64,000 nucleotides of DNA, taken from NCBI RefSeq assembly GCF_947648125.1, contig NZ_CANSMR010000007.1:124001-188000 (forward strand). The letters run 5' to 3'. How positions within the stretch are numbered: position 1 is the first letter of the stretch; each line of letters opens with the position of its first letter. The notes below the pieces were generated by a model. That model ran no database searches. It was given only the letters and a program-made list of their open reading frames with translations, and had not been told where the DNA came from. This stretch comes from an uncultured Bradyrhizobium sp. (GTDB taxonomy: Bacteria > Pseudomonadota > Alphaproteobacteria > Rhizobiales > Xanthobacteraceae). The position numbers and the translations under genes are program-made. Below are positions 11,922 through 52,232 of this stretch, piece by piece.

Positions 11922-11980
11922 CGAGATTTTCACCCAGAGCGGGACTGGCCCGCTTGTCGTCAAGCCGGCGACAGCCGTGA

Positions 11981-27974: not shown

Positions 27975-30485
<2,511 letters not shown>

Positions 30486-30728: not shown

Positions 30729-30962
30729 ATGAGACTCTTGATCGAGATCGCGGCAGCGGCATTGCTCATGGTGTGCATCACGGCGACCAGCGCAGCCTAT
30801 GCGGCGGGCAAGCCGGGCCGCAGCGCCGACGGCCTGAGCTGCAGCTTCAGCGTGACGCAGGACGCATCGCCGGCCGCGCGCTGTGCCGCCATCAAGCGGC
30901 AATGCGGCGGCAAGTTCTACGCGAATGCCTGCGGCGACAAGCTGCTGTCCGCAACGAATTAG
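30729..30962 (+). CDS. Small secreted cysteine-containing protein
   Basis: 77 aa from ATG 30729, with GGAGG nine bases upstream; an in-frame start at 30573 is rejected. A clear signal peptide (LLIEIAAAALLMVCITATSAAYA) precedes a basic mature part with four cysteines (LSCSF, ARCAA, RQCGG, NACGD), likely two disulfides. Family unknown. It is divergent from glgP, and a strong hairpin at 31101 may end its transcript. Confidence 0.6.
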   Translation: MRLLIEIAAAALLMVCITATSAAYAAGKPGRSADGLSCSFSVTQDASPAARCAAIKRQCGGKFYANACGDKLLSATN

Positions 30963-31100
30963 GTGGCTGCACAAATCGCCCTCACGCGCGATCGCGAACA
31001 CCGGAGTGATACGGATTTCCAAGGCTTAACGAGTTCTTTACAAACACAGCTGTCGCGCATGGGGCGGGCACATTTTTCAGCTCCGACGCATTTCATTCCG

Positions 31101-31148
31101 AAGCAATTTTCACCGGGCCGCTGACCTAGTCAGCGGCCCGAATTGCTT
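31101..31148 (+). terminator. Strong hairpin, probable terminator
   Basis: CGGGCCGCTGA and TCAGCGGCCCG form an 11-bp perfect stem around CCTAG (31114-31140). Outer arms AAGCAATT and AATTGCTT extend it. The 3' side has only a few T residues, so it may instead be a stable RNA end. Confidence 0.55.
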
Positions 31149-31189
31149 TGCGGACAGGCATATGCGTGACAGAGCGATGGTGCCTCCTT

Positions 31190-31590
31190 CGTCGTCCTGG
31201 CGAAAGCCAGGACCCATTACCCCAATCGTCAAATGAGGCCCGACAGGTCGTTCCAATCCGGATTTTCCACTTCAATCAGCTTGATCTTCCAATCGCGCTT
31301 CCAGAACTTCAGCTGCTTCTCGCGGGCGATGGCTTCCTGCGGTGTGGCGAATTCCTCGAGGTGAACGAGACGGAAGATCTGGTACTTGTAGACGAACGTG
31401 GAGCCGCGGCCCGAACGATGCAGTTCGAGCCGCAGGCGAATGTCGTTGGTGACGCCGATGTAAAGCGTTCCGTGATGGCGGCTTGCCAGGATGTAGACGT
31501 AGTAGCAGCTTGCAGCGCTCATGGTTTGGCCCAAGCTCGTGAGACGGCGACCAGCCGGGGTAATGGGTCCTGGCTTTCGCCAGGACGACG
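31190..31590. mobile_element. GIY-YIG gene enclosed by perfect 34-bp inverted repeats
   Basis: The left arm 31190-31223 (starting CGTCGTCCTGGCGAAAGCC) and the right arm 31557-31590 are exact reverse complements over 34 bases. They frame only the GIY-YIG gene, leaving 5 nt on the stop side and 34 on the start side. The same arms occur close together, without a gene, at 39585-39706 and 46861-46981. I therefore treat this as a gene-bearing form of a palindromic repeat family. Target-site duplications are not evident. Confidence 0.6.
31229..31522 (-). CDS. Small GIY-YIG domain nuclease-like protein
   Basis: 97 aa from ATG 31522 (MSAASCYYVYILAS); a TTG at 31534 is the alternative. The whole protein is one GIY-YIG domain: YYVYILAS, then GTLYIGVTNDIRLRLELH with the catalytic Arg, the HLEEFATPQEAIAREKQLK helix with its Glu, and WKRDWKIKLIE. 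This matches the UPF0213/YhbQ-like small nuclease group. The stop lies only 5 nt inside one arm of the flanking inverted repeat. The domain call is firm; action on the repeat is a hypothesis. Confidence 0.88.
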   Translation of the reverse strand: MSAASCYYVYILASRHHGTLYIGVTNDIRLRLELHRSGRGSTFVYKYQIFRLVHLEEFATPQEAIAREKQLKFWKRDWKIKLIEVENPDWNDLSGLI

Positions 31591-31719
31591 TCTGTGGGCG
31601 ACGCCTATTAACCCATCAGAACGAATTAAGAACACTTTAGCAAGTCTTTGATATATCATTGTGATTCGGCGCCTGCGCCGACACAATATCTATGGTCTCC
31701 CAGTCTCCGCGAGGACTAC

Positions 31720-32151
31720 ATGTCCACCATCGCCTTTGATCAATTCGCTCTGACCCGGATTGCCGATTTCGCGCGGTCGCTGTCGCGGCTGCACCAGGCC
31801 TCGCGGCGCCAGCCGATCGACGACGACCAGCTCGACCGCGAGTTCAATGCGGTCTGCATGTCGATCTGGGGCTACACCACGGATGATTTCAGCGACGAGC
31901 TGTTCTCGAACGAGGATCACGCCTGGCTCGACTCGCTCGATGAAGCGCATGCGCGGATCTTCGCGGGCGAGCAGGGTTACGACCTCGTCGACGATCACGG
32001 CATGCTGACGGACTGGTGGGGCTATTGCTGGATGATCCTCGCCGAGAAGCGCGGCCTGCTCAACCCGGAGAACCGCGCCGCGGCGCGGGCCGCGATCGAG
32101 GAGAAATACATGGCCGCGCCGAACGTGATCGGCGTGATCGTGGCGCGCTGA
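31720..32151 (+). CDS. Hypothetical acidic protein
   Basis: 143 aa from ATG 31720 with GAGGA upstream; the frame opens earlier at 31648 without support. It is acidic and largely helical, rich in Trp and Asp (EDHAWLDSLDEAHARIF, DWWGYCWMILAEKRGL), with no signal peptide or membrane segment. I recognise no family. It is probably cytoplasmic. It converges on the DUF2865 gene with a 19-nt gap. Confidence 0.6.
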   Translation: MSTIAFDQFALTRIADFARSLSRLHQASRRQPIDDDQLDREFNAVCMSIWGYTTDDFSDELFSNEDHAWLDSLDEAHARIFAGEQGYDLVDDHGMLTDWWGYCWMILAEKRGLLNPENRAAARAAIEEKYMAAPNVIGVIVAR

Positions 32152-32170
32152 GTGGCGCAGCTCGAAGCCG

Positions 32171-32968
32171 TCAGTTCGCCTCGGCCCGCTTGGCGGGCTT
32201 GGCGGCATTGCCCTTCGGCGCAACAGACGATGGCGTCGCCGGCGCGGCGTCGCGGCTGGTTTCCGGCAGCGGCGCGTCGCTGGCGATCTCGGCGTTGACG
32301 GGCGCGACCTTCATTTCGCCGAGCCGCGCGCGAACCGCTGCGGTCAATCCGGGATATGAGGCGATCGGCGTGAAGTCGAACGATTGCTCGTTGCCGACAC
32401 GGACGCCGGTATAGGCGACGAGGCCGTCGGTGGTTGCGATCACGTCGCCGGCCTTCAGCGAGGCATCGAGCGCGAGGTCGACCGGCGCGAGCCCGGCCGG
32501 GTCGCGGCCGTTGCAGGTGCAGTCGGCGCGCAGCGCCTTGCGATAGGCGAAGGCGTTCTCGCTGTCGGCGTAGCGCTCGCCCGTGGTCGATGCCGAGCTG
32601 TCGATATGGCTGCCGTAATAGACCTTGGTCGCGCTCGCCGGGCAGAACGCCTGGCAGAGCTGCGCCGGCGTCGCGTTGCCGCGCATCGTCAGCGGGAAAT
32701 ACTTGCCGTCGCAGCTGCGCACGCAATACGCCGGTCCGGAACCGGCCACGCGCGGCGCCGAGACCGGCGCAGACTGCTGCCGTTCCGGCTGCTGGTTGAG
32801 GCCGAACGGATCGGCGAAGAAATTGGCCTGCGGCGGGGCCTGCCGGCCCTGCTGCTTCTGGGAACCGCCGAAGAAGAAGTCGAACAGCCCTTCGGCTGAG
32901 ACGGGAGCGGGCACGACCAGGATGGAACCCGCAAACGCAGCGGCGGCAAGCATCACGCAGCGCCGCAT
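32171..32968 (-). CDS. Secreted DUF2865 protein
   Basis: 265 aa from ATG 32968; a GTG at 33007 would add 13 residues. A signal peptide ends at VSAEG. A Gln/Pro-rich stretch follows, then the DUF2865 core with CVRSCDGKYFPLTMRGN, QLCQAFCPAS, TKVYYGSHID and YRKALRADCTCNG. Several cysteines are conserved in the family. The C-terminal 70 residues are Ala/Pro-rich and low in complexity. Periplasmic or envelope location is likely; function unknown. Confidence 0.8.
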   Translation of the reverse strand: MRRCVMLAAAAFAGSILVVPAPVSAEGLFDFFFGGSQKQQGRQAPPQANFFADPFGLNQQPERQQSAPVSAPRVAGSGPAYCVRSCDGKYFPLTMRGNATPAQLCQAFCPASATKVYYGSHIDSSASTTGERYADSENAFAYRKALRADCTCNGRDPAGLAPVDLALDASLKAGDVIATTDGLVAYTGVRVGNEQSFDFTPIASYPGLTAAVRARLGEMKVAPVNAEIASDAPLPETSRDAAPATPSSVAPKGNAAKPAKRAEAN

Positions 32969-33170
32969 GCGCCGATCACTCAACTCTGTACGCAACGCCA
33001 ACTCCACCCGACGCGCCTCGCCGCGGCGACAAGGTGCCCCGGCAGATTCACCTTAAGGCGGGATGGTAAACGAGCGATTGATTGTGCGGCTGCAGACTAC
33101 TTCCACGTCGCGCCGCTGGCGGCAGGACTATCGCTTATGTGGTTTGAGGTGTAACCGCATCGGTACAGCG

Positions 33171-33296
33171 CTCCCTCTCCCGCTTGCGGGGGAGGGCTGG
33201 GGTGGGGGTCTCACCGCAATGGGACTCGTGGAAAGAGCCCCCACCCGGATCGCATCTGTCGATGCGATCCGGCCTCCCCCGCAAGCGGGAGAGGCG
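33171..33296. repeat. 126-bp palindromic repeat, copy 1 of 3
   Basis: CTCCCTCTCCCGCTTGCGGG begins the left hairpin and CCCCGCAAGCGGGAGAGG ends the right. Between them is an inner hairpin GGATCGCATC/GATGCGATCC. Further copies are at 49976 and 61492. It lies in the 407-nt gap 32969-33375 between two genes on the same strand; nothing else in that gap is recognisable. Confidence 0.9.
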
Positions 33297-33375
33297 AAGC
33301 GAGTTCGCGGATCGACCCGGTATAGGTCCCTCGATAGGTGTAAGCGCGGAGAACGGGGGAGGGAGGGAAAGACCC

Positions 33376-33939
33376 TCAATCCTTCAAAAACTCGCCGGCC
33401 TTGTACAGCGCGCGGAACGGCAGCCCGGCTTCGGCAAACGTCTCGGTGGCACCTTCCTCGCGGTCGACCATGGTGAAGACCAGCGCGATCTCGCCGCCGG
33501 CCTCGCGCACGGCTTCCACTGCCTTCAGCGCCGAGCCGCCTGTCGTGGTGACGTCCTCGACGATCACGATGCGCTTGCCCGCCAGGCTCTCGCCCTTGGC
33601 GAGCCCTTCGACGGCAAGCCGCGCGCCGTGCTCCTTCGGCTTCTTGCGCACGAAGAAGGCGGCGATCGGATGACCCTTCAGCCATGACAGCTGCGCGATG
33701 GCGCCGGCGAGCGGCACCGCGCCCATCTCGAGCCCGCCGACGAAATCGAGCCGGTCGTCCTTCAGCGCCTCATAGGTGAGCTCGGCGAGCAGCGCTGCGC
33801 CTTCGGGATCGAGCATCGTCGGCTTCAGGTTGAAATAGAAATCGCTCTTGCGCCCCGACGCCAAGGTGATCTCTCCGCGGCCGAACGAGCGCTTGCGGAT
33901 GATCTCGGCGAGGCGGGCGCGGGAGGCTGATTTGGACAA
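33376..33939 (-). CDS. pyrE: Orotate phosphoribosyltransferase
   Basis: 187 aa from TTG 33939 ([14 protein letters not shown], read as Met). It makes orotidine 5'-phosphate from orotate and PRPP in pyrimidine synthesis. The PRPP-binding loop is [19 protein letters not shown], and [11 protein letters not shown] carries the catalytic lysines. The length fits the short bacterial form. The 126-bp repeat lies after its 3' end. Confidence 0.94.
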
Positions 33940-34164
33940 AGGCTTTTTCCCTTGGGGGTTCTTTGGAGGCTTTCAGGCGGCCGGCAATCTATCGGCGGTC
34001 TCCCGCACATTCCAGCGGGTCAATCCCGCCGTCAACAGTGCCCGCGCCGCCATTTCAGCGCAGCCGCGTGCGGAAAGCGCGGGTTGTGCGGCCGTTCCAA
34101 TCCCCGTAAGCAGGCGCCAAAGACTCGCAAAACGCTCGGCCAAACATTTGTACGGGAAGCGGAA

Positions 34165-34791
34165 ATGACCATCGAGCTGCACACCTGGAACACCCCCAAT
34201 GGCCGCAAGATCTCGGTGGCGCTGGAGGAAATGGGGCTGCCCTACAAGGTGATCCCGGTGAATATCGGCAAGGGCGAGCAGATGGCGCCCGCCTTCCTGG
34301 CAATCAGCCCGAACAACAAGATCCCGGCGATCGTGGATCCCGACGGCCCCGGCGGCAAGCCGGTCAGCATCTTCGAGTCCGGCGCGATCCTGCTCTATCT
34401 CGGCGAGAAGACCGGCAAGTTCCTGCCGAAACCGCTCATCGAGCGGATCCCGGTCTATGAGTGGCTGATGTGGCAGATGGGCGGTTTCGGCCCGATGCCG
34501 GGCCAGGTGCACCATTTCATCGCGCTGGAGAACGAGCAGGACCGCGCCTATGGCCTGAAGCGCTACATGGCCGAGACTCGGCGGCTCTACGGCGTGCTGG
34601 ACCGCCGGCTGGATGGCCGCGAATTCGTCGCGGGCGATCTGTCGGTGGCCGATTTCGCCATCCTCGGCTGGGCCTGGCGCCATCCGCGCCACAAGGTTGA
34701 TCTGGCCGACTTTCCCAACGTCAAGCGCTGGTACGAGGCGTTGATGGCCCGCCCGGCGACGAAGCGCGGCATGGACGCGAAGCTGGATTGA
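34165..34791 (+). CDS. Glutathione S-transferase family protein (Nu/YfcG-like)
   Basis: 208 aa from ATG 34165; the longer open frame from 33952 is not supported. The N-terminal thioredoxin fold reads IELHTWNTPNGRKISVALEE, with Thr-Pro-Asn at the active position typical of the YfcG/Ure2p-like group, and NNKIPAIVD then FESGAILLYL for glutathione binding. The C-terminal helical domain includes LSVADFAILGW. A cytoplasmic thiol-disulfide or detoxifying role is inferred from the family. Confidence 0.88.
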   Translation: MTIELHTWNTPNGRKISVALEEMGLPYKVIPVNIGKGEQMAPAFLAISPNNKIPAIVDPDGPGGKPVSIFESGAILLYLGEKTGKFLPKPLIERIPVYEWLMWQMGGFGPMPGQVHHFIALENEQDRAYGLKRYMAETRRLYGVLDRRLDGREFVAGDLSVADFAILGWAWRHPRHKVDLADFPNVKRWYEALMARPATKRGMDAKLD

Positions 34792-34803
34792 GGGTTGCTG
34801 ATT

Positions 34804-34887
34804 GTAGGATGGGTAGAGCGAAGCGAAACCCATCACTTCGAATCCGCGGCAGACATGATGGGTTTCGCTGCGCTCTACCCATCCTAC
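34804..34887. repeat. 84-bp palindromic repeat
   Basis: GTAGGATGGGTAGAGCGAAG is mirrored by CGCTCTACCCATCCTAC around ATCACTTCGAATCCGCGG. It lies between the convergent GST and LysE genes and may serve as a two-way transcript end. Family typical of Bradyrhizobium. Confidence 0.88.
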
Positions 34888-34896
34888 GTGCTCGCG

Positions 34897-35532
34897 CTAC
34901 GCCCTTCGCGCCTCGAGCGCCATCTTCATCGCAAGCCCCGCGAGCACCGTGCCCATCAGCCAGCGCTGCACCAGGAGCCAGGTCGGGCGGGTGCCGAGGA
35001 ACACCGCGATCGAGCCGGCGGCGAGCGCGATCATCGCATTGACGCTGACGCTGATCACGATCTGGATCGAGCCGAGCGCGAGCGACTGCGTCAGCACGCT
35101 GCCGCCGGCGGGATCGATGAACTGCGGTAGCAGCGCGAGATAAAGCATCGCGATCTTCGGGTTCAGCAAATTGGTGAGAAAGCCCATCGCGAACAATTTG
35201 CGCGGGCCGTCGACCTTCAGCGCCTTGACCTGGAACGGCGAGCGGCCGCCGGGCCTCACGGCCTGCCATGCCAGCCAGAGCAGATAGGCGGCGCCGGCGA
35301 AACGCAGCGCGTCATAGGCGTAGGGAATCGCAAACAGCAGCGCGGTGATGCCGAACGCTGCACACAGCATGTAGAACACGAAGCCGAGCGCCACGCCACC
35401 GAGCGAGACGATGCCGGCCGCCGGACCCTGCGTGATCGAGCGCGAGATCAGGTACATCATGTTCGGCCCTGGTGTCAGCACCATGCCGAGGCAGACGAGC
35501 GCAAAGCCGAGCAACGCGGATGTGTGGGGCAT
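34897..35532 (-). CDS. LysE-family exporter
   Basis: 211 aa from ATG 35532; a GTG 8 codons upstream is possible. Six hydrophobic segments and the family signature LTPGPNMMYLISRS near the N-terminus, then GFLTNLLNPKIAMLYLALLPQF. Such inner membrane proteins export amino acids or homoserine-lactone-like compounds. A second LysE gene on the same strand begins about 860 nt upstream, separated by two palindromes; the two are clearly distinct in sequence. Confidence 0.9.
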   Translation of the reverse strand: MPHTSALLGFALVCLGMVLTPGPNMMYLISRSITQGPAAGIVSLGGVALGFVFYMLCAAFGITALLFAIPYAYDALRFAGAAYLLWLAWQAVRPGGRSPFQVKALKVDGPRKLFAMGFLTNLLNPKIAMLYLALLPQFIDPAGGSVLTQSLALGSIQIVISVSVNAMIALAAGSIAVFLGTRPTWLLVQRWLMGTVLAGLAMKMALEARRA

Positions 35533-35619
35533 GACGGGTCTCGCTTGGGGATGCACGCACTTCTAGCGTGTCATCCGCCGCGCGGCCATGCTGGAATTGC
35601 TCTCGGAGCAATCTAGCGG

Positions 35620-35694
35620 CTAGTGTCCCGAATCCGAAGTTCGTATCATTCGCCACACCTTCGGATCGAACTTCGGATTCGATAAGGACACTAG
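35620..35694. repeat. 75-bp palindrome ending in CTAG, copy 1
   Basis: CTAGTGTCCCGAATCCGAAG and CTTCGGATTCGATAAGGACACTAG (split across the right arm) are mirror images with small mismatches. Its ends and the AATCCGAAGTTCG core resemble the neighbouring element at 35708. Small non-autonomous element shape. Confidence 0.8.
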
Positions 35695-35707
35695 CAAACT
35701 TATGATT

Positions 35708-35784
35708 CTAGTGTGCTTTATGAATGCGAAGTTCGTGAAAGCGGCTGCCGCGAAATCGCACGAACTTCGCATTCAGCACACTAG
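35708..35784. repeat. 77-bp palindrome ending in CTAG, copy 2
   Basis: CTAGTGTGC ... GAATGCGAAGTTCGTG is mirrored by CACGAACTTCGCATTC ... GCACACTAG. It is related to the element at 35620 but not identical. Its right end CTAG supplies the stop codon of the adjacent LysE gene (35781-35783, reverse strand). Confidence 0.8.
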
Positions 35785-36398
35785 CCGGTCGCGACCGCGA
35801 ACCAGATAGCGATGCCGACAAGCGCGAGCGCGAATCCGCCGCGGATGATCCGGCGGTTGCTGGCGACGTCGATCATCGACTGCATCGAACCGGCCAGGGT
35901 GACGATCACAGCATGGATCAGCGTTGCGATCGCGACATAGATGAGGCTCAGCAAAAGCGTTTGCGACGTGACAGATCCGGCCTCCGGACGAACGAACTCG
36001 GGCAATATGGCAACATAGAAAACTGCGGCCTTGGGATTGAGCAGATTGGTGATCAGGCCGCGACGGAAGGCTGGCCGCGGCCGCTCGTTGAGGTCGACCG
36101 CTTCCGAGCCGCCATGGCCCGACCAGGCCTCCGACGCCAACCACAGCAGATAGAGCACGCCGCCCCAACGCAAGAGGCCATAGAGCAGCGGCGAATTGTC
36201 TATCACGGCTGCGAGGCCGAAGGACGCGATCACGCCGTAAGTCATCAGGCCAAGTGCGATGCCGGCGACTGCGGCGAACCCGGTCCGCATGCCGTTCGAG
36301 AGCGACAGTGCGGCGAGGTAGGTCATGTTGGGGCCGGGCGTGATCTCGATGACGAGAGCGGTCAGCGCGAAGGCAAGCAAGGGATGGAGGTCAGCCAA
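35781..36398 (-). CDS. LysE-family exporter, second paralogue
   Basis: 205 aa. TTG 36398 is preceded by an unusually strong GGAGGGAGGTCG, which supports this start. It has six hydrophobic segments, EITPGPNMTYLAALSLSNG near the N-terminus and RRGLITNLLNPKAAVFYVAILPEF in the middle. It exports a small amino compound by family. The TAG stop is formed by the end of the palindrome at 35708-35784, so insertion of that element may have reset the C-terminus. It starts 46 nt after the polA stop on the same strand. Confidence 0.88.
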   Translation of the reverse strand: MADLHPLLAFALTALVIEITPGPNMTYLAALSLSNGMRTGFAAVAGIALGLMTYGVIASFGLAAVIDNSPLLYGLLRWGGVLYLLWLASEAWSGHGGSEAVDLNERPRPAFRRGLITNLLNPKAAVFYVAILPEFVRPEAGSVTSQTLLLSLIYVAIATLIHAVIVTLAGSMQSMIDVASNRRIIRGGFALALVGIAIWFAVATG

Positions 36399-36443
36399 CG
36401 ACCTCCCTCCGACCCGGCGGGCTGCTGAAGCTTTCGACTTGGC

Positions 36444-39400
36444 TCAATGCGCCTCGTCCCAGTTGTTCGCGGCGCGGGCGTCGACCTGCAGCGGCAGCGA
36501 CAGGATCACCGCCGGGAACGGCGCGTCCTGCATCACCTTCTGCACCACCGGCAGCGTCGCTGCGACCTCGTTGTCAGGCACCTCGAAGATCAATTCGTCA
36601 TGCACCTGCAGCAGCATCTGTGCCGAGAGCTTCTTCTCGGCGAGCGCGTCCTCGACCCGGATCATGGCGCGGCGGATGATGTCGGCCGCGGTGCCCTGCA
36701 AGCGCGCGTTGATCGAGGCGCGTTCGTTGAAGGCGCGCACCGAGGCGTTGGACGCCTTGATGTCGGGGTAGTAGCACTTGCGCCCGAACAGCGTCGTCAC
36801 ATAGCCGTTGCGGCGGCAGAAGTCCTTGGTCTCGTCCATGTAGGCGCGGATGCCGGGGAAGCGCTCGAAATACTTCTTGATGTAGGCGGAAGCTTCCTCG
36901 CGCGCGATGCCAAGCTGGTTGGCAAGGCCGAACGCCGAGATGCCGTAGATGATGCCGAAGTTGATCGCCTTGGCGCGGCGCCGCACCTCGCTCGGCATGT
37001 CCTTGATCGGCACGCCGAACATTTCGGAGGCGGTCATGGCGTGAATGTCGAGCCCATCGCGGAACGCCTGGCGCAGCACCGGCACGTCGGCGATCTCGGC
37101 CAGCAGCCGCAGTTCGATCTGGGAGTAATCGGCCGACACCAGCTTGTGGCCGGGTGTTGCGATGAAGGCGCGGCGAATCTTGCGGCCGTCCTCGGTACGA
37201 ACAGGGATGTTTTGCAAGTTCGGCTCGTTGGACGACAGCCGTCCTGTGGTCGTCGCGGCGAGAGCGTAGGTCGTGTGCACGCGGTGGGTCTGCGGGTTGA
37301 CGTAGGTCGGCAGCGCGTCGGTGTAGGTCGATTTCAGCTTCGAGACTTGGCGCCACTCCAGGATCTTCTTCGGGAATTCGTGGCCCTGCTCGGCGAGATC
37401 GTCGAGCACCTGCGCGGTGGTCGACCAGGCGCCGGTCTTGGTTTTGGTGCCGCCGGGCAATCCCATCTTGCCGAAGATGATGTCGCCGATCTGCTTCGGA
37501 CTGCCGACATTGACCGGCTCGCCGGCGATCTCCTGGATCTCGGCCTCGACCCGTGCCGCGGTCTGGGCGAAATCGCCCGACAGCCGCGACAGCACCTGGC
37601 GGTCGATCGAGATGCCGCGACGCTCCATCCGCGCCAGCACCGACACCAGCGGCCGCTCCAGCGTCTCGTAGACCGTCATCATCCGCTCGGCGACGAGGCG
37701 GGGCTTCAGCACCCGCCACAGCCGCAGGATCAGGTCGGCGCTTTCGGCCGCGTATTCGGTGGCCTTGTCGATCGTGACCTGATCGAAGGTCAACTTGCCC
37801 TTGCCGCTGCCGACGAGGCCGCCGTAGCTGACGACGGCATGGCCGAACCAGCGCTCGGCCAGCGCCTCCAGCGCATGCGAGCCGCGGCCGGCATCGAGCG
37901 CGTAGGACATCAGCTGGGCGTCATCGATGTTGCGCAGCGTGACGCCGTGCTGCGCCAAGGTCACTGCGGTGAACTTGACGTTGAAGCCGACCTTCTGGAT
38001 GCCGGCGGACTCCAGCAGCGGCTTTAGCGCCTTCAACGCATCGGCAGTCTTGATCTGGCCGGGCGCGAGGCCCGCATCGAACAGCCCGGCGCCGCCACCA
38101 GCCTGCCGGTGGCTGAGCGGGATGTAGCAGGCATCGTTCGGCGCCACCGCCAGTGCCAGTCCCGACAACTCGGCCTGCATCGGGTCGATCGATTCCGACA
38201 TCGCCTCGATTGCGATGTAGCCGCTGTCGTGCGCGCGCGCGACAAAGGCGTTGAGCTGATCGAGACTGCCGATCGCCTGGTAGGCCTTGCGATCGAAGCC
38301 GGTCTTGCGGATCGCTTCGCCGCGGGCCTCGGCCAAGATTGCCGGCGTGCCCTTCAGGCTGGAGTTCTTGTCGTCGCGTGCGCCGGTCGGTTTGGTGCGC
38401 TCCCTCGTTGGCGAACCCGCCGGCGCGGCGGCCGACGGAGTGTCTCCCGGCGCGGGCGTCACGTCCGACGGCGGCAAGGGTGAGAACACGCTGGCGCCGC
38501 TCTTGTTGCCGGGATCGGCATCGACATTGGCGGGGTCGATCTGCGCATAGTCGGCGACACGGCGGGTGAGGGTGGAAAACTCCATCGCCTTGAGGAAGGC
38601 GACCAGCCGGCGCGAGTCGGGCTCGTGCACCGCGAGGTCGTCGAGCGGCACCTCGAGATCGACCTTGTCGTCGAGCAGCACGAGCTGGCGCGAGATGCGC
38701 GCCTTCTCGGCGTTCTCGAGCAGCGCCTCGCGCCGCTTCGGCTGCTTGATCTCGCCGGCGCGGAACAGCAGCTGATCGAGGTCGCCATACTCGATGATCA
38801 ACTGGGCTGCGGTCTTGATGCCGATGCCGGGCACACCAGGCACGTTGTCGGTGGAATCGCCGGCCAGCGCCTGCACCTCGACCACCTTCTCGGGCGGCAC
38901 GCCGAATTTCTCGATCACCTCGTCGCGGCCGATGCGGCGATCCTTCATCGTGTCGTACATCACGACCTTGTCGTTGACGAGCTGCATCAGATCCTTGTCG
39001 GACGACACGATCGTCGTGGTCGCGCCGCGCTCGGTGGCGAGCCGCGCATAGGTCGCGATCAGGTCGTCGGCCTCGAAGCCGGCCTGCTCGAGGCAGGGCA
39101 GCTCGAAGGCGCGCACCGCCTCGCGGATCAGGGCGAATTGCGGGATCAGATCGTCGGGCGCCGGCGGCCGGTGCGCCTTGTAGTCGGGATAGAGCTTGTT
39201 GCGGAACGTGATCTCCGACTTGTCGAAGACGATCGCAAGATGGGTCGGCCGGTGGTCCTCCGGCATGTCGCGGAGCAGCTTCCACAGCATGTTGCAGAAG
39301 CCGAGCACGGCGTTGACCTGCAGCCCGTCGGACTTACGGTTCAGCGGCGGCAGCGCGTGATAGGCGCGGAAGATGTAGCCCGAACCATCGACCAGGAAGA

Positions 39401-39509
39401 CGTGGTCCCCCTTGGCCGTGGGCTTGCTCGCAACCGGCTTGGCGGCGACGGGATTGGCTGAGGTCTTCGGGGCGGGCTTGGCGGGGTCTTTGGAGGCTGT
39501 TTTCGGCAT
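36444..39509 (-). CDS. polA: DNA polymerase I
   Basis: 1021 aa. The N-terminal extension is rich in Lys, Ala and Pro, then comes the 5'-3' exonuclease (VFLVDGSGYIFRAYHALP, FEADDLIATYA, ALAGDSTDNVPGVPGIG). A 3'-5' exonuclease-fold domain follows (about 400-600), and the polymerase has motif A DYSQIELRLLAEIAD, motif B RRRAKAINFGIIYGIS and motif C LLQVHDELIFEV. The proofreading motif DxE of exo I is replaced: the segment reads YIAIEAMSESID (about 431-442), with no Asp-x-Glu pair, so proofreading is probably lost while the fold remains. ATG 39509. Confidence 0.97.
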   Translation of the reverse strand: MPKTASKDPAKPAPKTSANPVAAKPVASKPTAKGDHVFLVDGSGYIFRAYHALPPLNRKSDGLQVNAVLGFCNMLWKLLRDMPEDHRPTHLAIVFDKSEITFRNKLYPDYKAHRPPAPDDLIPQFALIREAVRAFELPCLEQAGFEADDLIATYARLATERGATTTIVSSDKDLMQLVNDKVVMYDTMKDRRIGRDEVIEKFGVPPEKVVEVQALAGDSTDNVPGVPGIGIKTAAQLIIEYGDLDQLLFRAGEIKQPKRREALLENAEKARISRQLVLLDDKVDLEVPLDDLAVHEPDSRRLVAFLKAMEFSTLTRRVADYAQIDPANVDADPGNKSGASVFSPLPPSDVTPAPGDTPSAAAPAGSPTRERTKPTGARDDKNSSLKGTPAILAEARGEAIRKTGFDRKAYQAIGSLDQLNAFVARAHDSGYIAIEAMSESIDPMQAELSGLALAVAPNDACYIPLSHRQAGGGAGLFDAGLAPGQIKTADALKALKPLLESAGIQKVGFNVKFTAVTLAQHGVTLRNIDDAQLMSYALDAGRGSHALEALAERWFGHAVVSYGGLVGSGKGKLTFDQVTIDKATEYAAESADLILRLWRVLKPRLVAERMMTVYETLERPLVSVLARMERRGISIDRQVLSRLSGDFAQTAARVEAEIQEIAGEPVNVGSPKQIGDIIFGKMGLPGGTKTKTGAWSTTAQVLDDLAEQGHEFPKKILEWRQVSKLKSTYTDALPTYVNPQTHRVHTTYALAATTTGRLSSNEPNLQNIPVRTEDGRKIRRAFIATPGHKLVSADYSQIELRLLAEIADVPVLRQAFRDGLDIHAMTASEMFGVPIKDMPSEVRRRAKAINFGIIYGISAFGLANQLGIAREEASAYIKKYFERFPGIRAYMDETKDFCRRNGYVTTLFGRKCYYPDIKASNASVRAFNERASINARLQGTAADIIRRAMIRVEDALAEKKLSAQMLLQVHDELIFEVPDNEVAATLPVVQKVMQDAPFPAVILSLPLQVDARAANNWDEAH

Positions 39510-39584
39510 GGCCGAAACTTAGGGATTTTTGCGCGGATTGACAGCCTTTGTGTCGTTGAATCCACCCGTGCCACACAACGATTT

Positions 39585-39706
39585 GTCGTCCTGGCGAAAG
39601 CCAGGACCCATTACCCCAGATGTCAGTCGTAATGCGACGCTGGGGCCGTGAATCCCGCTCACAATCAAAAACGGTGGTTATGGGTCCTGGCTTTCGCCAG
39701 GACGAC
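39585..39706. repeat. Palindromic repeat with GIY-YIG-type arms, no gene (copy 2)
   Basis: GTCGTCCTGGCGAAAGCCAG at the left and CTTTCGCCAGGACGAC at the right match the arms around the GIY-YIG gene at 31190-31590. The middle of about 57 nt (GGGGCCGTGAATCCCGCTC...) has no frame and is shared with the copy at 46861. Lies between polA and the response regulator. Confidence 0.88.
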
Positions 39707-39715
39707 GCCGAGAAG

Positions 39716-40453
39716 CTACGCCTTGTCCCCGGTCGGCGAGAACAGATAGCCGCCGCCGCGGATGGTCCGGATCACCGACGGCTTGGTCGGGTCGAATTCG
39801 ATCTTGCGGCGGATGCGCATGATGCGCAGGTCGACGGCGCGGTCGAAGGCTTCCGCGTCGCGGGCATTGGCCAGTTCCAGCAGCCGCTCGCGCGACAGCA
39901 CGCGCTTCGGATTGGCCGCGAACACCTTCAGCAGGCCGAATTCGGAAGCGGTCAGCGGATGCTCATTGCCCTCGTCGTCGCGCAGCGCCTGGGCCTCGAG
40001 ATCGAGCCATTTGGTGCCGAACCGCACCAGCTGCTCTTTTTCGGCCTTCGCGCTTGCCGGTTCCGGCGCGGCAGTCTTGGCGGGCCCGCTCCGCCGCAGC
40101 ACCGAGCGGATGCGCGCCATCAATTCGCGCAGCTCGCAGGGCTTTGCCACGTAATCGTCGGCGCCGAGCTCGAGCCCGACCACCCGGTCGATCGGGCTGG
40201 CGGTAGCTGTCAGCATGATGACGGGGACGTTGATCTTGCTCTTGAGGTCGCGAATGATCGACAGACCATCCTCCTCGGGCATGTTGAGGTCCAGCACCAC
40301 GAGATCGGGCGTGCTGCTCTCGATCTCCTTGCGCAGGCTCTTGCCGCCATCGCACAGCGTCACGCCGAAGCCGTGCATCTTGAGGTAATCGCCGACCATC
40401 TCGCGGGCGGGCGCCTCATCGTCGACGATGAAGATATGCGGGTTCTGGTTCAT
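39716..40453 (-). CDS. OmpR-family response regulator
   Basis: 245 aa. Receiver with IFIVDDEAPAREM, Asp55 in LVVLDLNMPEEDG and AKPCEL. A linker rich in Ala and Pro leads to a winged-helix effector with LTASEFGLLKVFAANPKRVLSR and IMRIRRKIEFD ending RGGGYLF. ATG 40453 overlaps the stop of the upstream REC-kinase by 4 nt. It is the probable DNA-binding output of the TRAP-binding-protein/two-kinase cluster (45246 to 39716). Target genes unknown. Confidence 0.92.
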   Translation of the reverse strand: MNQNPHIFIVDDEAPAREMVGDYLKMHGFGVTLCDGGKSLRKEIESSTPDLVVLDLNMPEEDGLSIIRDLKSKINVPVIMLTATASPIDRVVGLELGADDYVAKPCELRELMARIRSVLRRSGPAKTAAPEPASAKAEKEQLVRFGTKWLDLEAQALRDDEGNEHPLTASEFGLLKVFAANPKRVLSRERLLELANARDAEAFDRAVDLRIMRIRRKIEFDPTKPSVIRTIRGGGYLFSPTGDKA

Positions 40454-42198
40454 GATGTCTCTGTCGCCGGGAGTGTAACCGTAAAGGTCGACCCCTGTCC
40501 GGGGCCCGGGCTCTGTGCGGTCACATGGCCGCCATGCATGTCGATGATGCGCTTGACGATGGAAAGGCCGAGGCCGGTCGAGCTTTCGCCCGCGGTCGGC
40601 TTGGCCGACAGCCGCTGGAACCGGCCGAACAGCCGGCCGAGATCCTCGGGGCTGAGGCCGGGGCCCTGGTCGGCGATCCGGATCACCGTGTCGTCACCCT
40701 CGTGGCTGACCGCGACCGTGATCTTGCCGCCGATCGGCGAGTATTTGATCGCGTTGCTGACGAGGTTGTCGATCGCCTCGCGGATACGGTCGGAGTCGCA
40801 CATCGTGACGAAGTGCTGCGGCCCCGAGACCGAGATGCTCTGCTGCTTGTTGACGGCCGAGGGCAAATTGGCCTCGGTGACCTCGTTGACGAGCGCCGCG
40901 ACGTCGACCGGCTCGCGGCGGATGGTGATGTCGAAGGCGTCGGCCATCGCGTCCGAGATCAAATGGTCGACCATCGAGGTCAGCCGCTTGGTGGCGTCCC
41001 TGATGTGCTCGACCTGGGCGGTGACGCTTTCCTTCGGCGAGCCGGCGCCGATCAATTCGGTCAGCATCTCGGTGCGGCCGAGGATCACGCCGAGCGGATT
41101 CTTCAGATCGTGTGCGACGGTGCCGAGGATTTCATTCTTGAAGCCGTTGGCGCGCTGCAGCCGCAGCCATTGCGCCGACAGCCGCCGGTTGGCCTGCATC
41201 AGCGCGCGGGTGCGCTGCGCGACGCGGTCCTCGAGCTGGGCGTTGGCCTCTTGAAGCTGCTGGTAGAGGATCACGTTGTCGAACGCGATCGACAGCCGGC
41301 TGGAGAAGATCTCGACCAGCGCGCGGTCGGTGTCGGAGAGCTGGCGCTCGGCCTGCAGCAGCACAACGACCTCGCGGCCGCTGCCGGTGCGCGAATAGAG
41401 CACGCTGCGGTGGTCGGCGAACTCGTTCTTGCGGCGCTGGAAGGCTTCCTCCACCATGTGCCGCAGGTCGGGATCGAGCGCCTTCGAGGACGTCGTGCCG
41501 ATGAAGCGGCTGTAGCAGCCCGAGCAGGCCAGCACCGAGAAATCGGCGGCCGCCGAATTGCCGTCGTCGCGCAGCACCAGGATGCCGGCGCAATCGACAT
41601 TGAGCAGCGAGGCGAGTTGCGTCAGCACGCCTTCGGCCAGCCGCTGCATCGACTTGAAGTCGTACAGCGTCGAGGCCGCGTCGATGATGATCTCGAGGCC
41701 GCGCCTGGTCTGCACCATGCGCTCGAGCTGCTGGTAGCTGCGCAGCGCGGCGGTCAGCGAGGTGAACAGCTTGTCGGCGGTGAGCTCGGTCTTCGCCTTG
41801 TAGTCGTTGATGTCGTATTGCACGATGACGCGCCGCTCCGGCGCCTGGCCGGGCTGGCCGGTGCGCAGGATGATGCGGACGGTCTCGTTCTTGATCTCGT
41901 TGCGGATGTACTCGACGAGCTCGAGGCCGGCGACGTCGGTCTCCATGATGACGTCGAGCAGCACGGCTGCGATGTCGGGATTGTCCCGCATCAGCGTGCG
42001 GCCTTCGGCCGCAGAGTAGGCCGACAGGATCTCCAGCGTCGCGCCGTTCAGATTGTAATCGCTGAGTGCAAAACGGGTGCCTTCATGGACGGCGTGATCG
42101 TCGTCGATCACGGCGATCTTCCATTTCCGTACCGGCGAGTCCTCCTGGGGGCTCTCGGTGTCGTCGATCAGTTGGAGGACATCGTCCTGTTCGGCCAT
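40450..42198 (-). CDS. Receiver-DUF3369-histidine kinase
   Basis: 582 aa, no membrane segment. Order: REC (about 27-150; AVIDDDHAVHEG, Asp82), a DUF3369 GAF-like sensor domain (about 170-320; NVDCAGILVLRDDG with a Cys pair CSGCYSRF), a coiled coil, HisKA with GTVAHDLKNPLG (His363) and HATPase ending STGLGLSIVKRIIDMHGG. A soluble kinase with its own N-terminal receiver can accept phosphate from the upstream membrane kinase and pass a signal to the regulator encoded next. It overlaps the upstream gene by 31 nt and the downstream one by 4 nt. Confidence 0.9.
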   Translation of the reverse strand: MAEQDDVLQLIDDTESPQEDSPVRKWKIAVIDDDHAVHEGTRFALSDYNLNGATLEILSAYSAAEGRTLMRDNPDIAAVLLDVIMETDVAGLELVEYIRNEIKNETVRIILRTGQPGQAPERRVIVQYDINDYKAKTELTADKLFTSLTAALRSYQQLERMVQTRRGLEIIIDAASTLYDFKSMQRLAEGVLTQLASLLNVDCAGILVLRDDGNSAAADFSVLACSGCYSRFIGTTSSKALDPDLRHMVEEAFQRRKNEFADHRSVLYSRTGSGREVVVLLQAERQLSDTDRALVEIFSSRLSIAFDNVILYQQLQEANAQLEDRVAQRTRALMQANRRLSAQWLRLQRANGFKNEILGTVAHDLKNPLGVILGRTEMLTELIGAGSPKESVTAQVEHIRDATKRLTSMVDHLISDAMADAFDITIRREPVDVAALVNEVTEANLPSAVNKQQSISVSGPQHFVTMCDSDRIREAIDNLVSNAIKYSPIGGKITVAVSHEGDDTVIRIADQGPGLSPEDLGRLFGRFQRLSAKPTAGESSTGLGLSIVKRIIDMHGGHVTAQSPGPGQGSTFTVTLPATETS

Positions 42199-44249
42199 TG
42201 ACTGGTTCCGTCGGCTGCTGCGTCAGTGATCGTGGGCTGTCCCTTGGCGATCCTGGGCATGATAATGCGAAAAGTGGTGCCTTGTCCTACCCTTGACTCC
42301 AGCATCATGCGTCCGCCGAGCTGCTGGGTGACGAGGTTATAGACGATATGAAGGCCGAGGCCCGTACCACCTTCGTTGCGGCGCGTCGTAAAGAACGGGT
42401 CGAACGCCTGTCGCTGCACGTCCGGCGTCATGCCAGCCCCGTCGTCCGCGAAGATGATCTCGACATCATCAGCGCCGCGGCCGCGGGCCGAGATCGTGAT
42501 GTTGCCGGAGCGGCCGCCCGCGAAGGCATGATTGACGGCGTTGAGGAAAAGATTGGTTAAGATCTGGCCATAGGCGCCGGGATAGCCGTCGATCAGGAGG
42601 CCGTCGGGCACATCGACGGACAGCGCGATCGCGGCCTTCTTCAGCACCGGCCGCAGGCTCGCCACGATCTGGTCGGTCGATTCACTCAAGGCAAACTGGC
42701 GGCGCTCGGCATGCGAGCGATCGACGGCGACTTGTTTGAACGACTGGATCAGTTCGCCGGCGCGCTGCAGATTCGAGACCAGTTGCTGCGATGCGTCACG
42801 CGAGGCGCGCACGAATTCGTCGAGTTTGGAACGGCGCAGCGGCTCGGTATTCAGGTCGTTCTCGAACATCTCGCTGCGGCGGGCAAAGCTCGAGGCGACC
42901 GTCAGGCTGATGCCGATCGGGTTGTTGACCTCGTGGGCGACGCCCGCAACGAGGCCGCCGAGCGCGGCGAGGCGCTCGGCATCGATCAGGTTCTGCTGGG
43001 CGGCGTTGAGCTCGAGCAGCGCGCTCTCGGCCTTCTCCTTGGCGGTGCGCAGCTCGTCCTCGGTCTTGCGCTTGGCGATCGCGTTTTCGCGGAACACCTC
43101 GACCGCACGCGCCATCGCGCCGACCTCGTCCTTGGCAGAGGTGCCCTGTACCGGCCGGTCGAGGTCGCCCGAGGTGATGGTGCGCATCGCGGCCATGATC
43201 TGCGCCAGCGGCAGCCGGATCGACAATGCAATCATGACGCCGGCCGACATGATGACGCCGAGGAAGATCACGGCGATCGACAGCACCCGGCGCGAGATCG
43301 ACGTCAGCGTCTTGTCGAACGTCTCCTGCGCCTTCTGCTCGCGCTGGCGCATCTTCACCGAGAGATCGTCGATCGCGCCGATCGCATCCGCCTGGCTGGC
43401 GTCGATCGAGTTGCGCAACAGATCGGTGCGGTTGGTGAGCTGTTCGCTGAGCTTGCCTAATCCGTCGCGCAGCTCGGCGGTCTTGACCTTGAGCCGCGCC
43501 AGCGCCATGCGCTGCAGATCGTTCTCGGCGAGATCGGTCATGACGGGAATCGTCTTCTCGATCGTATCGATGTTGCGGCGGGCTTCCTCGGCCGACGAGG
43601 AGGCCAGCGAGAGGTAGTAGGCGTTGGCGGCGACCAGCAGCGAAGTGAAGGCTTCGCGCGACTTGCCGAGCGCGGGCCAGATCAGCGCGTCGCGATGGCC
43701 GGTGGCGCCCTCGATGATCGAATAGAGCCCCGCCATGTCCTTGGTCGGCGTCAGCACCTCTTCGTCATAGGTCTTGGAGATCTTGGTCTGTACGGTGCGC
43801 AATTCGCCGAAGCCGTCGAGGAAACGACTGGTGACGCGCTCCAGCTGCTCGACCGAGCCCGACAGCATCGGGTCGGTCGAAGCCCGGTTGGTCAGCGTGC
43901 CGAGCACCGCTTCGCGGAGCAGCAGGATTTCCGCGAACAGGTCCGGGCTCGGCTGGTTGATGTAGCGATGGATCAGGTTCTGCAGACGGCTGGTCTCGCT
44001 TTCGAGCTTGGCCAGGATCTTGTCGGATTCCCGGACCTGGCGGACATCGTCCCAGGCCGAGCCGAGCACCTTCGAGCCGTTCCAGATCAGCACCGCGAGC
44101 ACGACCACGACGGCGGAATTGAGCAGCGCGATCGAAAGAATGCGCCAGCGGATCGGCACCGCGCGCAGCAACTGGACGATCCGGAAACGGCCCTGCGGCC
44201 CAAAGGCCGCCCGCCGTCGCATCGTCCCGTCCTGTTTGGGCGCGTCCAA
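42168..44249 (-). CDS. Membrane sensor histidine kinase with HAMP
   Basis: 693 aa from TTG 44249 with GGAG about 10 nt upstream; ATG 44222 is the alternative. TM1 is near 35-57, a long helical periplasmic domain (about 60-320) follows, TM2 is near 325-345, then HAMP, a coiled coil, HisKA with AGVAHEVNNPIGI (His439) and HATPase with EGGTGLGLHIVYNLVTQQ. The domain set resembles DctB/TorS-like kinases that work with a periplasmic binding protein. The TRAP solute-binding protein gene ends 7 nt upstream, which supports a partner role. Confidence 0.9.
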   Translation of the reverse strand: MDAPKQDGTMRRRAAFGPQGRFRIVQLLRAVPIRWRILSIALLNSAVVVVLAVLIWNGSKVLGSAWDDVRQVRESDKILAKLESETSRLQNLIHRYINQPSPDLFAEILLLREAVLGTLTNRASTDPMLSGSVEQLERVTSRFLDGFGELRTVQTKISKTYDEEVLTPTKDMAGLYSIIEGATGHRDALIWPALGKSREAFTSLLVAANAYYLSLASSSAEEARRNIDTIEKTIPVMTDLAENDLQRMALARLKVKTAELRDGLGKLSEQLTNRTDLLRNSIDASQADAIGAIDDLSVKMRQREQKAQETFDKTLTSISRRVLSIAVIFLGVIMSAGVMIALSIRLPLAQIMAAMRTITSGDLDRPVQGTSAKDEVGAMARAVEVFRENAIAKRKTEDELRTAKEKAESALLELNAAQQNLIDAERLAALGGLVAGVAHEVNNPIGISLTVASSFARRSEMFENDLNTEPLRRSKLDEFVRASRDASQQLVSNLQRAGELIQSFKQVAVDRSHAERRQFALSESTDQIVASLRPVLKKAAIALSVDVPDGLLIDGYPGAYGQILTNLFLNAVNHAFAGGRSGNITISARGRGADDVEIIFADDGAGMTPDVQRQAFDPFFTTRRNEGGTGLGLHIVYNLVTQQLGGRMMLESRVGQGTTFRIIMPRIAKGQPTITDAAADGTSQWPNRTMSSN

Positions 44250-44256
44250 GATCCGG

Positions 44257-45246
44257 TCACTCCATGTTGCGGATGCGTTCGATCAGCGCTGATATCGTCG
44301 GATCGCGCTCCGCCTTGGCATAGATGCCGGCCATCGCCGCCTCGAACGGCTTACGGTCGAAATCGGTCACGACCTTGACGCCGGCCAGCTCCGCCTGCTT
44401 GCGCGAGCGCTCCTCGAGCTCCCGCCACTTCTCGCGCATGTAGATGCTGGAGCGCTGCGCGGCTTCGCGGAAGATGGTCTGCTCGTCCGGCGTGAGGCTG
44501 GCCCAGGCCTTGCGTGACATCACCAGCACTTCGGGGCTCACGGTGTGCTGGGTCAAGGTGTAGTAGCCGGCGTATTTGTAGTGGCCGGTGGTGACGAAGG
44601 ACGGCCAGTTGTTCTCCGCGCCATCGATCAGCCGGTTGGCGAGCCCGGTCAGCACCTGGCCGTAGGCCATCTCGACCGGCTGGGCGCCGAGCGCGCGGAT
44701 CATCTCCGACATCTGTGCGGATTGCTGCACACGCAGCCGCAGCCCCTTGAGGTCGTCGAGCGAACGCACCGGGCGGACGCTGTTATAGATCGAGCGGGCG
44801 CCGGAATCGTAGAAGGTCAGCCCGACGAAGCCGTGGGCCTCGAGACTGTTCAGGATCTCGTTGCCGATCGGTCCATCCAGCACATGTTGCAGGTGCTCAA
44901 GGGATCGAAACAGGAACGGCATCGCCAGCACATTCACGGAAGGCACCATGGTTCCGATCAGCGCCACATTGGTCCGGTTCAGGTCGATGGCGCCGGCCCG
45001 CGTCTGCTCCAGCGTCTCCTTTTCCTCGCCGAGCTGGCGGGAATGGAAGACCACGATGCGGTGTCGGCCGCCGGTGCGCTCGGCGATCAGGCGGTCCATG
45101 TAATTCAGCGCCTGGACCGTCGGATAGTCTTCATTCTGGGTATCGGCGGTGCGGAATTCGCGCGCGAAAGCGCTCGCCGAGACCGCTGTCCATAGCAGCG
45201 CAACGGCAAGCGTTATTGTCCGCGAAAGGCCGGCGCGGCGATACAC
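44257..45246 (-). CDS. TRAP-type solute-binding protein (DctP family) without permease
   Basis: 329 aa from GTG 45246 with GGGGAA upstream. A signal peptide ends at SASAFA. The DctP family pattern is seen in DYPTVQALNYMDRLIAERTGG, QTRAGAIDLNRTNVALIG, DLKGLRLRVQQS and ANRLIDGAENNWPSF; Arg in GLRLRVQ normally binds the ligand carboxylate. No DctQ or DctM permease genes are in the window. Instead the gene leads a kinase-kinase-regulator set, so it probably presents an organic acid to the sensor rather than to a transporter. Ligand unknown. Confidence 0.88.
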   Translation of the reverse strand: MYRRAGLSRTITLAVALLWTAVSASAFAREFRTADTQNEDYPTVQALNYMDRLIAERTGGRHRIVVFHSRQLGEEKETLEQTRAGAIDLNRTNVALIGTMVPSVNVLAMPFLFRSLEHLQHVLDGPIGNEILNSLEAHGFVGLTFYDSGARSIYNSVRPVRSLDDLKGLRLRVQQSAQMSEMIRALGAQPVEMAYGQVLTGLANRLIDGAENNWPSFVTTGHYKYAGYYTLTQHTVSPEVLVMSRKAWASLTPDEQTIFREAAQRSSIYMREKWRELEERSRKQAELAGVKVVTDFDRKPFEAAMAGIYAKAERDPTISALIERIRNME

Positions 45247-45429
45247 AGGCTACAATTCCCCTTGTGATTTGTGTCCGGGACGGGAGCAAAAGGTTCAACG
45301 CTTTTAGCAGAAGGGCAGTGGTTCGCCCATCGGCCAAAACGTTAAAACCGCGCCGCAACCAGCGGTGTCGATTGAATTTGCGGTTGTAGCGCCGTATGAC
45401 CGCGTGTTGGCATCCGGGAACGGCTCGTC

Positions 45430-46773: not shown

Positions 46774-46860
46774 GGGTGGCCGTCTGGTCTGCTCAACTCC
46801 TTGTCCGTCATCCTGAGAGGATGTGAATGTATCGCTCACAAGCGGCGCCACACACTCAGG

Positions 46861-46981
46861 GTCGTCCTGGCGAAAGCCAGGACCCATTACCCCGGCCGCT
46901 CATCGTTGCGCGAGGCTAGGGCCGCGATCCCGCTTACAATCAAATTCGGTGGTTATGGGTCCTGGCTTTCGCCAGGACGAC
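46861..46981. repeat. Palindromic repeat with GIY-YIG-type arms, no gene (copy 3)
   Basis: GTCGTCCTGGCGAAAGCCAG at the left, CTTTCGCCAGGACGAC at the right, with a middle close to that of the element at 39585 (GGGCCGCGATCCCGCTTAC). It lies 22 nt before the start of the phosphotransferase gene. Confidence 0.88.
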
Positions 46982-47003
46982 AGTGTTGAGAGGCCGCGCG
47001 CGA

Positions 47004-49819: not shown

Positions 49820-49975
49820 GATCATGATGAGCGCGCGCAGCGTGTTCGCGTCTCTCTCGATCGCTCCAGGTGAGGTGAGCACCGCTCTCTTATTCCCTTC
49901 CTCTTTGCGGAGCACCCTGCAAGGGGGCAGTGCAATCGCACATGAAATTGGAGTGGTAACGGCATCGGCAGCCGG

Positions 49976-50101
49976 CTCCCTCTCCCGCTTGCGGGGGAGG
50001 GTTGGGGTGGGGGCTCTCTCCGCGAGTCATATCGTGGAGAGAGCCCCCACCCGCCGCGCGCTGAGCGCGCGTCGGCCTCCCCCGCAAGCGGGAGAGGCGA
50101 A
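49976..50101. repeat. 126-bp palindromic repeat, copy 2 of 3
   Basis: Same outer hairpins as the copy at 33171 (CTCCCTCTCCCGCTTGCGGG / CCGCAAGCGGGAGAGG) and the shared GAGAGCCCCCACCC. The inner stem is different in sequence (CCGCGCGCTGAGCGCGCG) but still palindromic. It takes up a third of the 393-nt gap between the binding-protein and permease genes (49820-50212); no promoter is recognisable in the rest. Confidence 0.9.
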
Positions 50102-50212
50102 GGGGGCCCGCGGACGATCTCCGCAGACGTCATATGCGATAGCCCTACCCCGCAAGGGGGAAGGGAGTCCCGTCAGTCCCGTTGCCTCACGCTCTTCAAG
50201 CCGGGGCATCGT

Positions 50213-52192: not shown

Positions 52193-52232
52193 GCAGATTT
52201 TTGGATGACGCCCCGCGTGAGGGGAGCCGCGC

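Follow-up and report, generated by a model that had tools for sequence, protein, structure and literature searches.

A GIY-YIG nuclease gene flanked by CGTC-tagged REP sequences in Bradyrhizobium

Described systems and the window locus

The closest described repeats are the CGTC-tagged REPs of Di Nocera 2013 (PMC3733652), which consist of a CGTC or TGTC tag, a stem of 8-9 bp, a loop of 4-5 nt, and a CCA tail, and which form head-to-head dimers. The class predominates in alphaproteobacteria, Bradyrhizobium is named as a carrier of CGTC-1 and CGTC-3, and the dRS3 repeats of Neisseria are CGTC-1 elements. The first two positions of the stem are "almost invariably" AT. In the sections of the paper that we draw on, no associated transposase gene is described, "GIY" is absent from the main text, and the question of what multiplies the class is left open (PMC3733652).

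A second comparison is with RAYTs and REPINs. In the portions of the two papers that we use (PMC3116915, PMC8266576), the gene lies beside its own REP type and is largely inherited with the species, a short conserved unpaired tag sits beside the hairpin, doublets are the multiplying unit, and there are several types, each with its own enzyme; our system is similar in these respects. RAYTs cleave their single-stranded cognate REP, with the tag and the loop as determinants (PMC8266576). But the RAYT is an HUH Y1 transposase with a covalent intermediate and the tag is GTAG, whereas here the enzyme is GIY-YIG and the tag is CGTC or TGTC (PMC3116915, PMC8266576).

Among the papers listed in our literature search, none links GIY-YIG genes to REPs. 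A study in Neisseria reported a small GIY-YIG enzyme, Ssn, that is said to be a single-stranded nuclease and to cut its own dispersed repeat (NTS). The cognate sequence is reportedly repeated hundreds of times, and many homologues are said to have different specificities. The target is reported to be a dRS3-type repeat, and the demonstrated role is reportedly modulation of transformation, not spread of the repeat. According to the preliminary description of our locus, a GIY-YIG enzyme cutting or spreading its own repeat would be a new repeat-mobilizing system; cutting of this kind has reportedly been published already for Neisseria. Here too the enzyme has a GIY-YIG domain with its key residues intact, and it is perhaps a relative of Ssn.

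The window is the whole stretch of 64,000 nucleotides that was analyzed. In it, a left REP arm (31190..31223, plus strand) and a right arm that is its exact inverted copy (31557..31590, minus strand) are complementary at 34/34 bases with a spacing of 333 nt. Between them is one open reading frame only, on the minus strand (31232..31522, with the stop codon at 31229-31231). It has 97 codons, counted from ATG, and encodes a GIY-YIG nuclease (PF01541, E 8.6e-16), which we call type A. So the two perfect 34-bp inverted arms around a lone 97-aa GIY-YIG gene, as first described, are there. On one side of the locus, the open reading frames include a gene (27975..30485, minus strand) that we take from its protein sequence to be glgP-like, and this flank is kept in relatives. 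On the other side is a 167-aa open reading frame (31648..32151, plus strand), whose DNA is the source of our locus tree.

A single 34-nt arm folds into four unpaired nucleotides (the CGTC tag), an 8-bp stem (GTCCTGGC), a 4-nt loop (GAAA), and an unpaired tail that starts with CCA (CCATTACCCC). Compared to shuffled sequences, the folds of the two arms have z scores of -4.7 and -4.6. Chance is excluded as the origin of the arrangement of arms and palindromes. The tag, 8-bp stem, 4-nt loop, and CCA tail are shared with the CGTC superfamily, as far as the sections cited above describe it, and so are the head-to-head dimers and the high copy number of the family. The AT at the start of the stem is not: types A, B', and C start with GT and type B with GC, while the types at loci L033-L035 do start with AT.

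PF01541 matched all 20 of the diverse relatives that we scanned. Eight residues do not vary among such relatives, namely V9, Y10, Y21, G23, R31, H35, E68, and N87 (numbered as in the window protein); these are presumably the key catalytic residues of GIY-YIG enzymes. Across five groups, median dN/dS values are 0.02-0.10, with 0.10 for type A (over 15 pairs). Judging from these alignments, purifying selection on the protein is strong, and the key residues of its family have been kept. The nearest solved chains by sequence are UPF0213 GIY-YIG proteins (PDB 1zg2, E 4e-8, and 1ywl, E 7e-5), for which we saw no repeat partner in a comparison by names only. We rejected a defense system as an explanation, as PADLOC gave no match of weight (best E 0.017).

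Arms and REP types in Bradyrhizobium and beyond

With up to three mismatches, which admits the sister type B', the 27-nt core of the REP is found 79 times forward and 76 times in reverse in the 8.57-Mb source genome, and a reversed control pattern is found 0 times. Exact cores number 33+35 (68) for REP-A, 48+52 for type C, and 24+22 for type B'. Arm type B (GCCCCGGC) was rejected as a dispersed repeat, with 0-2 copies per genome; the dispersed form is its near relative B' (GTCCCGGC). The same genome has seven GIY-YIG paralogues, six of them within inverted CGTC-like palindromes of different types: GTCCTGGC-GAAA (in the window), GTCCCTGC-GAAA, ATCGCCCGG-CTTGA, ATTGCCGGG-CTTGA paired with ATGGCCGGG-CTTGA, ATGGCCGGG-CTTGT, and a CGTCATTGCGAG-type palindrome, which was missed by the motif scan. 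The seventh and most distant paralogue (L037), near a contig end, has no flanking palindrome. An RNA family was also considered and rejected, given that nothing in Rfam matched positions 30900-47200 of the window at gathering scores.

The window contains other repeats. The palindrome at 34804-34887, whose 32-nt arms begin with GTAG, resembles a pair of REPs of the GTAG type (the class that goes with RAYTs); the window may therefore contain members of both REP superfamilies. Another family of dispersed palindromes (CCCTCTCCCGCTTGCGGGGGAGGG and its partners) is present in three copies (33157-33311, 49962-50114, and 61478-61634). There are large direct repeats at 11185-11429 and 11478-11722 (88% identical) and at 14830-15056 and 15091-15317 (70%), and a 32-nt sequence is found both at 11899-11930 and, 40 kb away, at 52170-52201 (94% identical).

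Every one of the 60 Bradyrhizobium genomes that we searched has at least one GIY-YIG homologue. We collected 116 loci, namely the 36 that were first returned and 80 further ones among the matches listed (some were omitted, including matches with internal stops), and left out L037, which had no tblastn match. If arms are defined as an inverted repeat with a score of at least 16, within 300 bp, on both sides of the gene, then 96 of these 115 loci have them, versus 0/228 shifted control positions. Among the 19 loci that lack arms by this definition, several have two hairpins with different stems. A strict test for outward CGTC hairpins was positive on both sides at 55/114 loci and on at least one side at 81/114, with 0/227 controls positive on both sides.

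For types A and C, the dispersed, unlinked copies of a REP largely follow the type of the gene. The preliminary description had suggested searching genomes of the genus for the repeat with and without the gene, and the result favors the association. An A gene, defined by a match of at least 79% identity, is present in nine genomes; it is interrupted by a stop codon in G058 and split into two pieces in G007. Exact copies of REP-A number 68, 55, 50, 45, 20, 19, 18, 9, and 9 in these nine, as compared to 0-3 copies in 46 of the 51 other genomes. The five exceptions are G004 (73), G044 (52), G003 (50), G017 (35), and G043 (24). In G003, G004, and G044, the place that the A gene occupies elsewhere is taken by a type B gene. 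In G017, a B-like gene lies about 1.2 kb away from the flank of this locus, and additional DNA separates the two. REP-A thus still has 35-73 copies in four genomes with a B gene there. G043 has no A or B gene among the protein matches listed; its locus does contain residues 58-96 of a truncated, decayed A gene (82% identity), together with a single type A arm (L399, 1174-1290 of the reverse complement).

If kinship is ignored, REP-A is more abundant with gene A (one-sided Mann-Whitney test, p = 6e-7) and REP-C with gene C (p = 9e-6), while the crossed pairings show no such effect (REP-A by gene C, p = 0.58; REP-C by gene A, p = 0.63). Gene C was scored from fetched loci, and two genomes that were scored as lacking it, with only partial matches, are nevertheless high in REP-C (144 copies in G004 and 62 in G052). 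With kinship controlled by the flank tree, we took independent pairs with unlike gene types and asked whether their REP types match. On average, the pairs agree 2.3 times and disagree 0.0 times out of 4 for A, and agree 2.7 times and disagree 0.1 times out of 8 for C. These trends are in the same direction and are not significant, because there are too few independent pairs. Also, B' REPs are abundant in several genomes with the A gene, so genes and REPs do not match one to one. A single enzyme may act on several REP types, or REPs may outlive their enzymes.

Across the phylum, 173/299 genomes have a GIY-YIG match. We examined 58 strong matches (30 that were returned and 28 picked down the list), 57 of which had enough flank, and found flanking inverted arms at 34 of the 57 (controls, 0/109). 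If the five matches that belong to the genus of the window are removed (two were already in the genus set), arms are present at 30/52 and absent from 22/52. Beyond the genus, then, arms are common without being universal. Equal numbers of homologues with and without arms had been named beforehand as speaking against the idea; neither here nor within the genus are homologues found as often without arms as with them. Weak matches had arms in 5/12 cases, with a different motif. Among named loci with enough flank, arms were found at 51/76 (24/25 type-A Bradyrhizobium loci and 27/51 others; controls, 1/144). The strict CGTC test succeeded on both sides for 13/57 strong matches, 0/12 weak matches, and 0 controls, and for 9/40 named loci that are not labelled Bradyrhizobium or Bradyrhizobiaceae.

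Loci with CGTC or TGTC arms, all from metagenome bins, include Nevskia (L389), Erythrobacter (L361), Rickettsiales (L369), Ignavibacteriae (L355), and Deltaproteobacteria (L382). A dRS3-like repeat is present in 10/10 genomes that were chosen for such or near-identical arms (5-246 copies, arms included) and is absent from 27/30 other genomes. The remaining three are G271 (4 copies), G321 (1), and G207 (16), and in G207 two of the copies flank a GIY-YIG gene. Separately, the weakly related GIY-YIG genes at L308 and L314-L317 are flanked by a different palindrome (TCATCCTGAG...CTCGAAGGATG and similar), which is perhaps a further enzyme-repeat pair.

We think that these genes and repeats are REP-nuclease pairs that work like RAYTs and REPINs, with a small GIY-YIG nuclease instead of the HUH transposase, and we would give this a probability of roughly 60%. 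As with RAYTs, the gene has its cognate REPs on both sides, and REPs of that type are also dispersed as doublets. The likeness to RAYTs in logic, with a nuclease of another fold, was part of the preliminary description, and both the arms at 96/115 loci and the REP copy number in trans, which follows the gene type, speak for it. The enzyme would bind and nick its own REP hairpin when this is single stranded (at a replication fork, in a cruciform, or in incoming DNA), and its specificity would come from the outer [CT]GTC tag and the loop. Host repair or replication would then copy or join the released dimer elsewhere. A resident enzyme would keep its own REP type multiplying in trans, and REPs without an enzyme would decay. 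GIY-YIG enzymes are hydrolytic nucleases and form no covalent intermediate with DNA, so, unlike for RAYTs, the joining must rely on host enzymes. That the enzyme cuts and spreads REPs is inferred.

Gene-less dimers and exchange at a fixed locus

The window has two palindromes without a gene (39585..39706 and 46861..46981). According to their arms and folds, both are head-to-head dimers of the window REP, with 31-nt arms that are 97% complementary, and are REPIN-like. In each, only one arm continues as CCATTACCCC while the other has CCATAACCACCG, so in both palindromes one arm has less than 34 bp in common with the copy that carries the gene. Hence the same arms were rightly recognized in these palindromes, which are real and consist of the same REP, except that one arm of each does not have the full 34 bp. 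At the first site, relatives carry other repeats: G010 and G044 have a B'-type dimer, G004 has a truncated remnant, and G003 and G042 have still other repeats. The second dimer is shared with G004 and G010; at that site, G044 has a C-type dimer and G042 and G003 have other repeats.

We assembled 41 dimers of types A, B', and C from the fetched sequences (orthologous copies in different species were counted separately). The length is 122-124 bp in 25 of the 41, and the inner sequence is conserved among the 16 pure A dimers. Because the inner part of the ~122-bp dimer is conserved, it seems from these alignments that the dimer multiplies as a unit, as it does for REPINs. The target-site duplication of an IS element with MITEs is missing: we found 3-bp duplications at 0/41 dimers (shuffled mean 0.9) and a 4-bp duplication at 1/41 (shuffled mean 0.2). 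The comparison of orthologous loci that had been suggested to reveal empty sites also came up short. Neither of the two window dimers, which we compared across 14 relatives (five alignable on both sides at each site), has a counterpart that is a clean empty site with a target duplication. The same holds for the dimers of three syntenic stretches, 328-400 kb long, in G000 (16 dimers), G004 (18), and G010 (10); many of these dimers had no alignable partner. Instead, several sites hold another repeat type.

In one case (G004, 59695-59816 in stretch coordinates), a comparison to G000 shows that DNA between short direct copies was deleted and one palindrome was left. A comparable lone palindrome with two tags lies at the glgP locus of G028 (L073). 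Both look like scars of deletion between two arms. Palindromes of this double-tagged kind are rare by pattern, with one in each stretch, so we do not base a mechanism on them.

The main rival to our reading is that the enzyme reads repeats and does not spread them, like Ssn with its NTS repeat in Neisseria as reported. It would cut single-stranded repeats to control DNA uptake or recombination, and the repeats would spread by other means, such as recombination or an unrelated transposase. GIY-YIG enzymes are hydrolytic nucleases, which fits such a role, and so does the lack of any insertion signature among the 41 dimers. Furthermore, some GIY-YIG genes of other genomes have dRS3-like arms on their flanks, and the dRS3 repeats of Neisseria belong to CGTC-1, according to the sections of Di Nocera 2013 cited above (PMC3733652). 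On its own, however, this rival does not account for why each gene type is flanked by its own REPs, nor for why the copy number follows the gene type. Also, Bradyrhizobium is not known to be naturally transformable. Overall, we consider it unlikely.

The REP-nuclease pair also has to be squared with where the genes are found. Flank clustering of 141 loci (115 from the genus and 26 named Bradyrhizobium loci) put 42 members in the cluster of the window locus, with at least two records counted twice because they came in through both the named and the unnamed collection (L039/L321 and L040/L330). The window is matched on both flanks by 41 of them and on one flank by the other, which is near a contig end. 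The cluster contains all 34 type-A loci (at least 79% identity to the window protein) and eight type B-like loci. Because type B was separated from type C partly by place, the type-A count alone is an independent test of a fixed locus, and type-A genes adjoin glgP in 34/34 loci examined. In some relatives the glgP locus lacks the gene (e.g., L092 and L093), and L073 has its lone palindrome; there are remnants in L094 and G043 and partial matches in G036 and G045.

Most of the flanking sequence of G004 is about 94-98% identical to that of the window, yet its gene is about 70% identical and its arms are of another type. We also built a flank tree of 40 genomes (G053 was dropped as it had no usable match). 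Two of the B labels, G014 and G041, rest on weak evidence (one fragment at a contig end and one partial arm). On this tree, the B label changes 9 times, which is the same as for shuffled labels, and at least 5 of these changes are forced by supported branches; the A label changes 7 times, with at least 4 forced. The forced changes, together with the swap in G004, imply that gene and arms change together. So far as the flanks tell, the gene and its arms are exchanged or lost together as a cassette at a fixed locus.

These same changes could be due to homing: the nuclease would cut at REP arms and drive the exchange of its own gene and arms at the fixed site, with repair from the homologous flanks, and the dispersed REPs would be by-products. 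The changes on the flank tree and the swap in G004 speak for this, but ordinary homologous recombination through the conserved flanks explains the swaps equally well. Homing enzymes do not recognize their own element, as stated in the part of PMC1564403 that we rely on, whereas here the repeats are at the element's own ends. Genes of homing endonucleases sit in an intron, an intein, or an otherwise uninterrupted target; the gene here is intergenic, with a repeat at each end. We find homing quite improbable.

A classical transposon, in which the gene hops with its terminal inverted repeats and the gene-less palindromes are its MITEs, seems more improbable still. In its favor, the repeat family has gene-bearing and gene-less copies, and type C genes are found at several loci, with two copies each in G031 and G001; the homology between the two in G031 spans 458 bp and ends in REP arms. 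But their dS is 0.325, so the duplication was not recent, and we reject a recent intragenomic duplication even though the proteins are 98% identical. There are no target duplications either, and with 34/34 type-A loci beside glgP, we reject a freely hopping autonomous element for type A. The earlier idea of an autonomous element and its derivatives therefore survives as one family with gene-bearing and gene-less members, and not in the sense of a hopping transposon. Similarly, a gene fixed at this locus without any movement had been named as a reason to abandon the idea: type A is indeed at one locus, but gene and arms are swapped and lost there, and type C is at several loci. Finally, the gene might merely sit in intergenic hot spots where REPs accumulate, as the different repeat types at 39585-39706 in different species might suggest, but this is scarcely credible given the armless shifted controls and an unlinked REP type that follows the gene type.

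A candidate partner for CGTC REPs

If the REP-nuclease pair is correct, then the GIY-YIG subfamily could be the dedicated mobilizing enzymes of the CGTC REP superfamily, and a second class of REP-spreading enzymes that is independent of the HUH RAYTs. These enzymes would cut single-stranded REP dimers by hydrolysis and leave the joining to the host, and the specificities of enzyme and repeat would be swapped together as a cassette at fixed loci. We offer this broader proposal tentatively, as its chances seem to be slightly below even.

What seems to be new is the type-by-type match between the enzyme, its arms, and the dispersed CGTC REPs, along with the exchange of cassettes. The enzyme is a likely missing partner for a large class of bacterial repeats, and a gene of about 95 codons is now a concrete candidate for what multiplies CGTC REPs. 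Since there are several naturally matched pairs of enzyme and substrate, the question of how these repeats multiply can be tested. If our reading is true, then two unrelated enzyme folds would have converged on one way of life.
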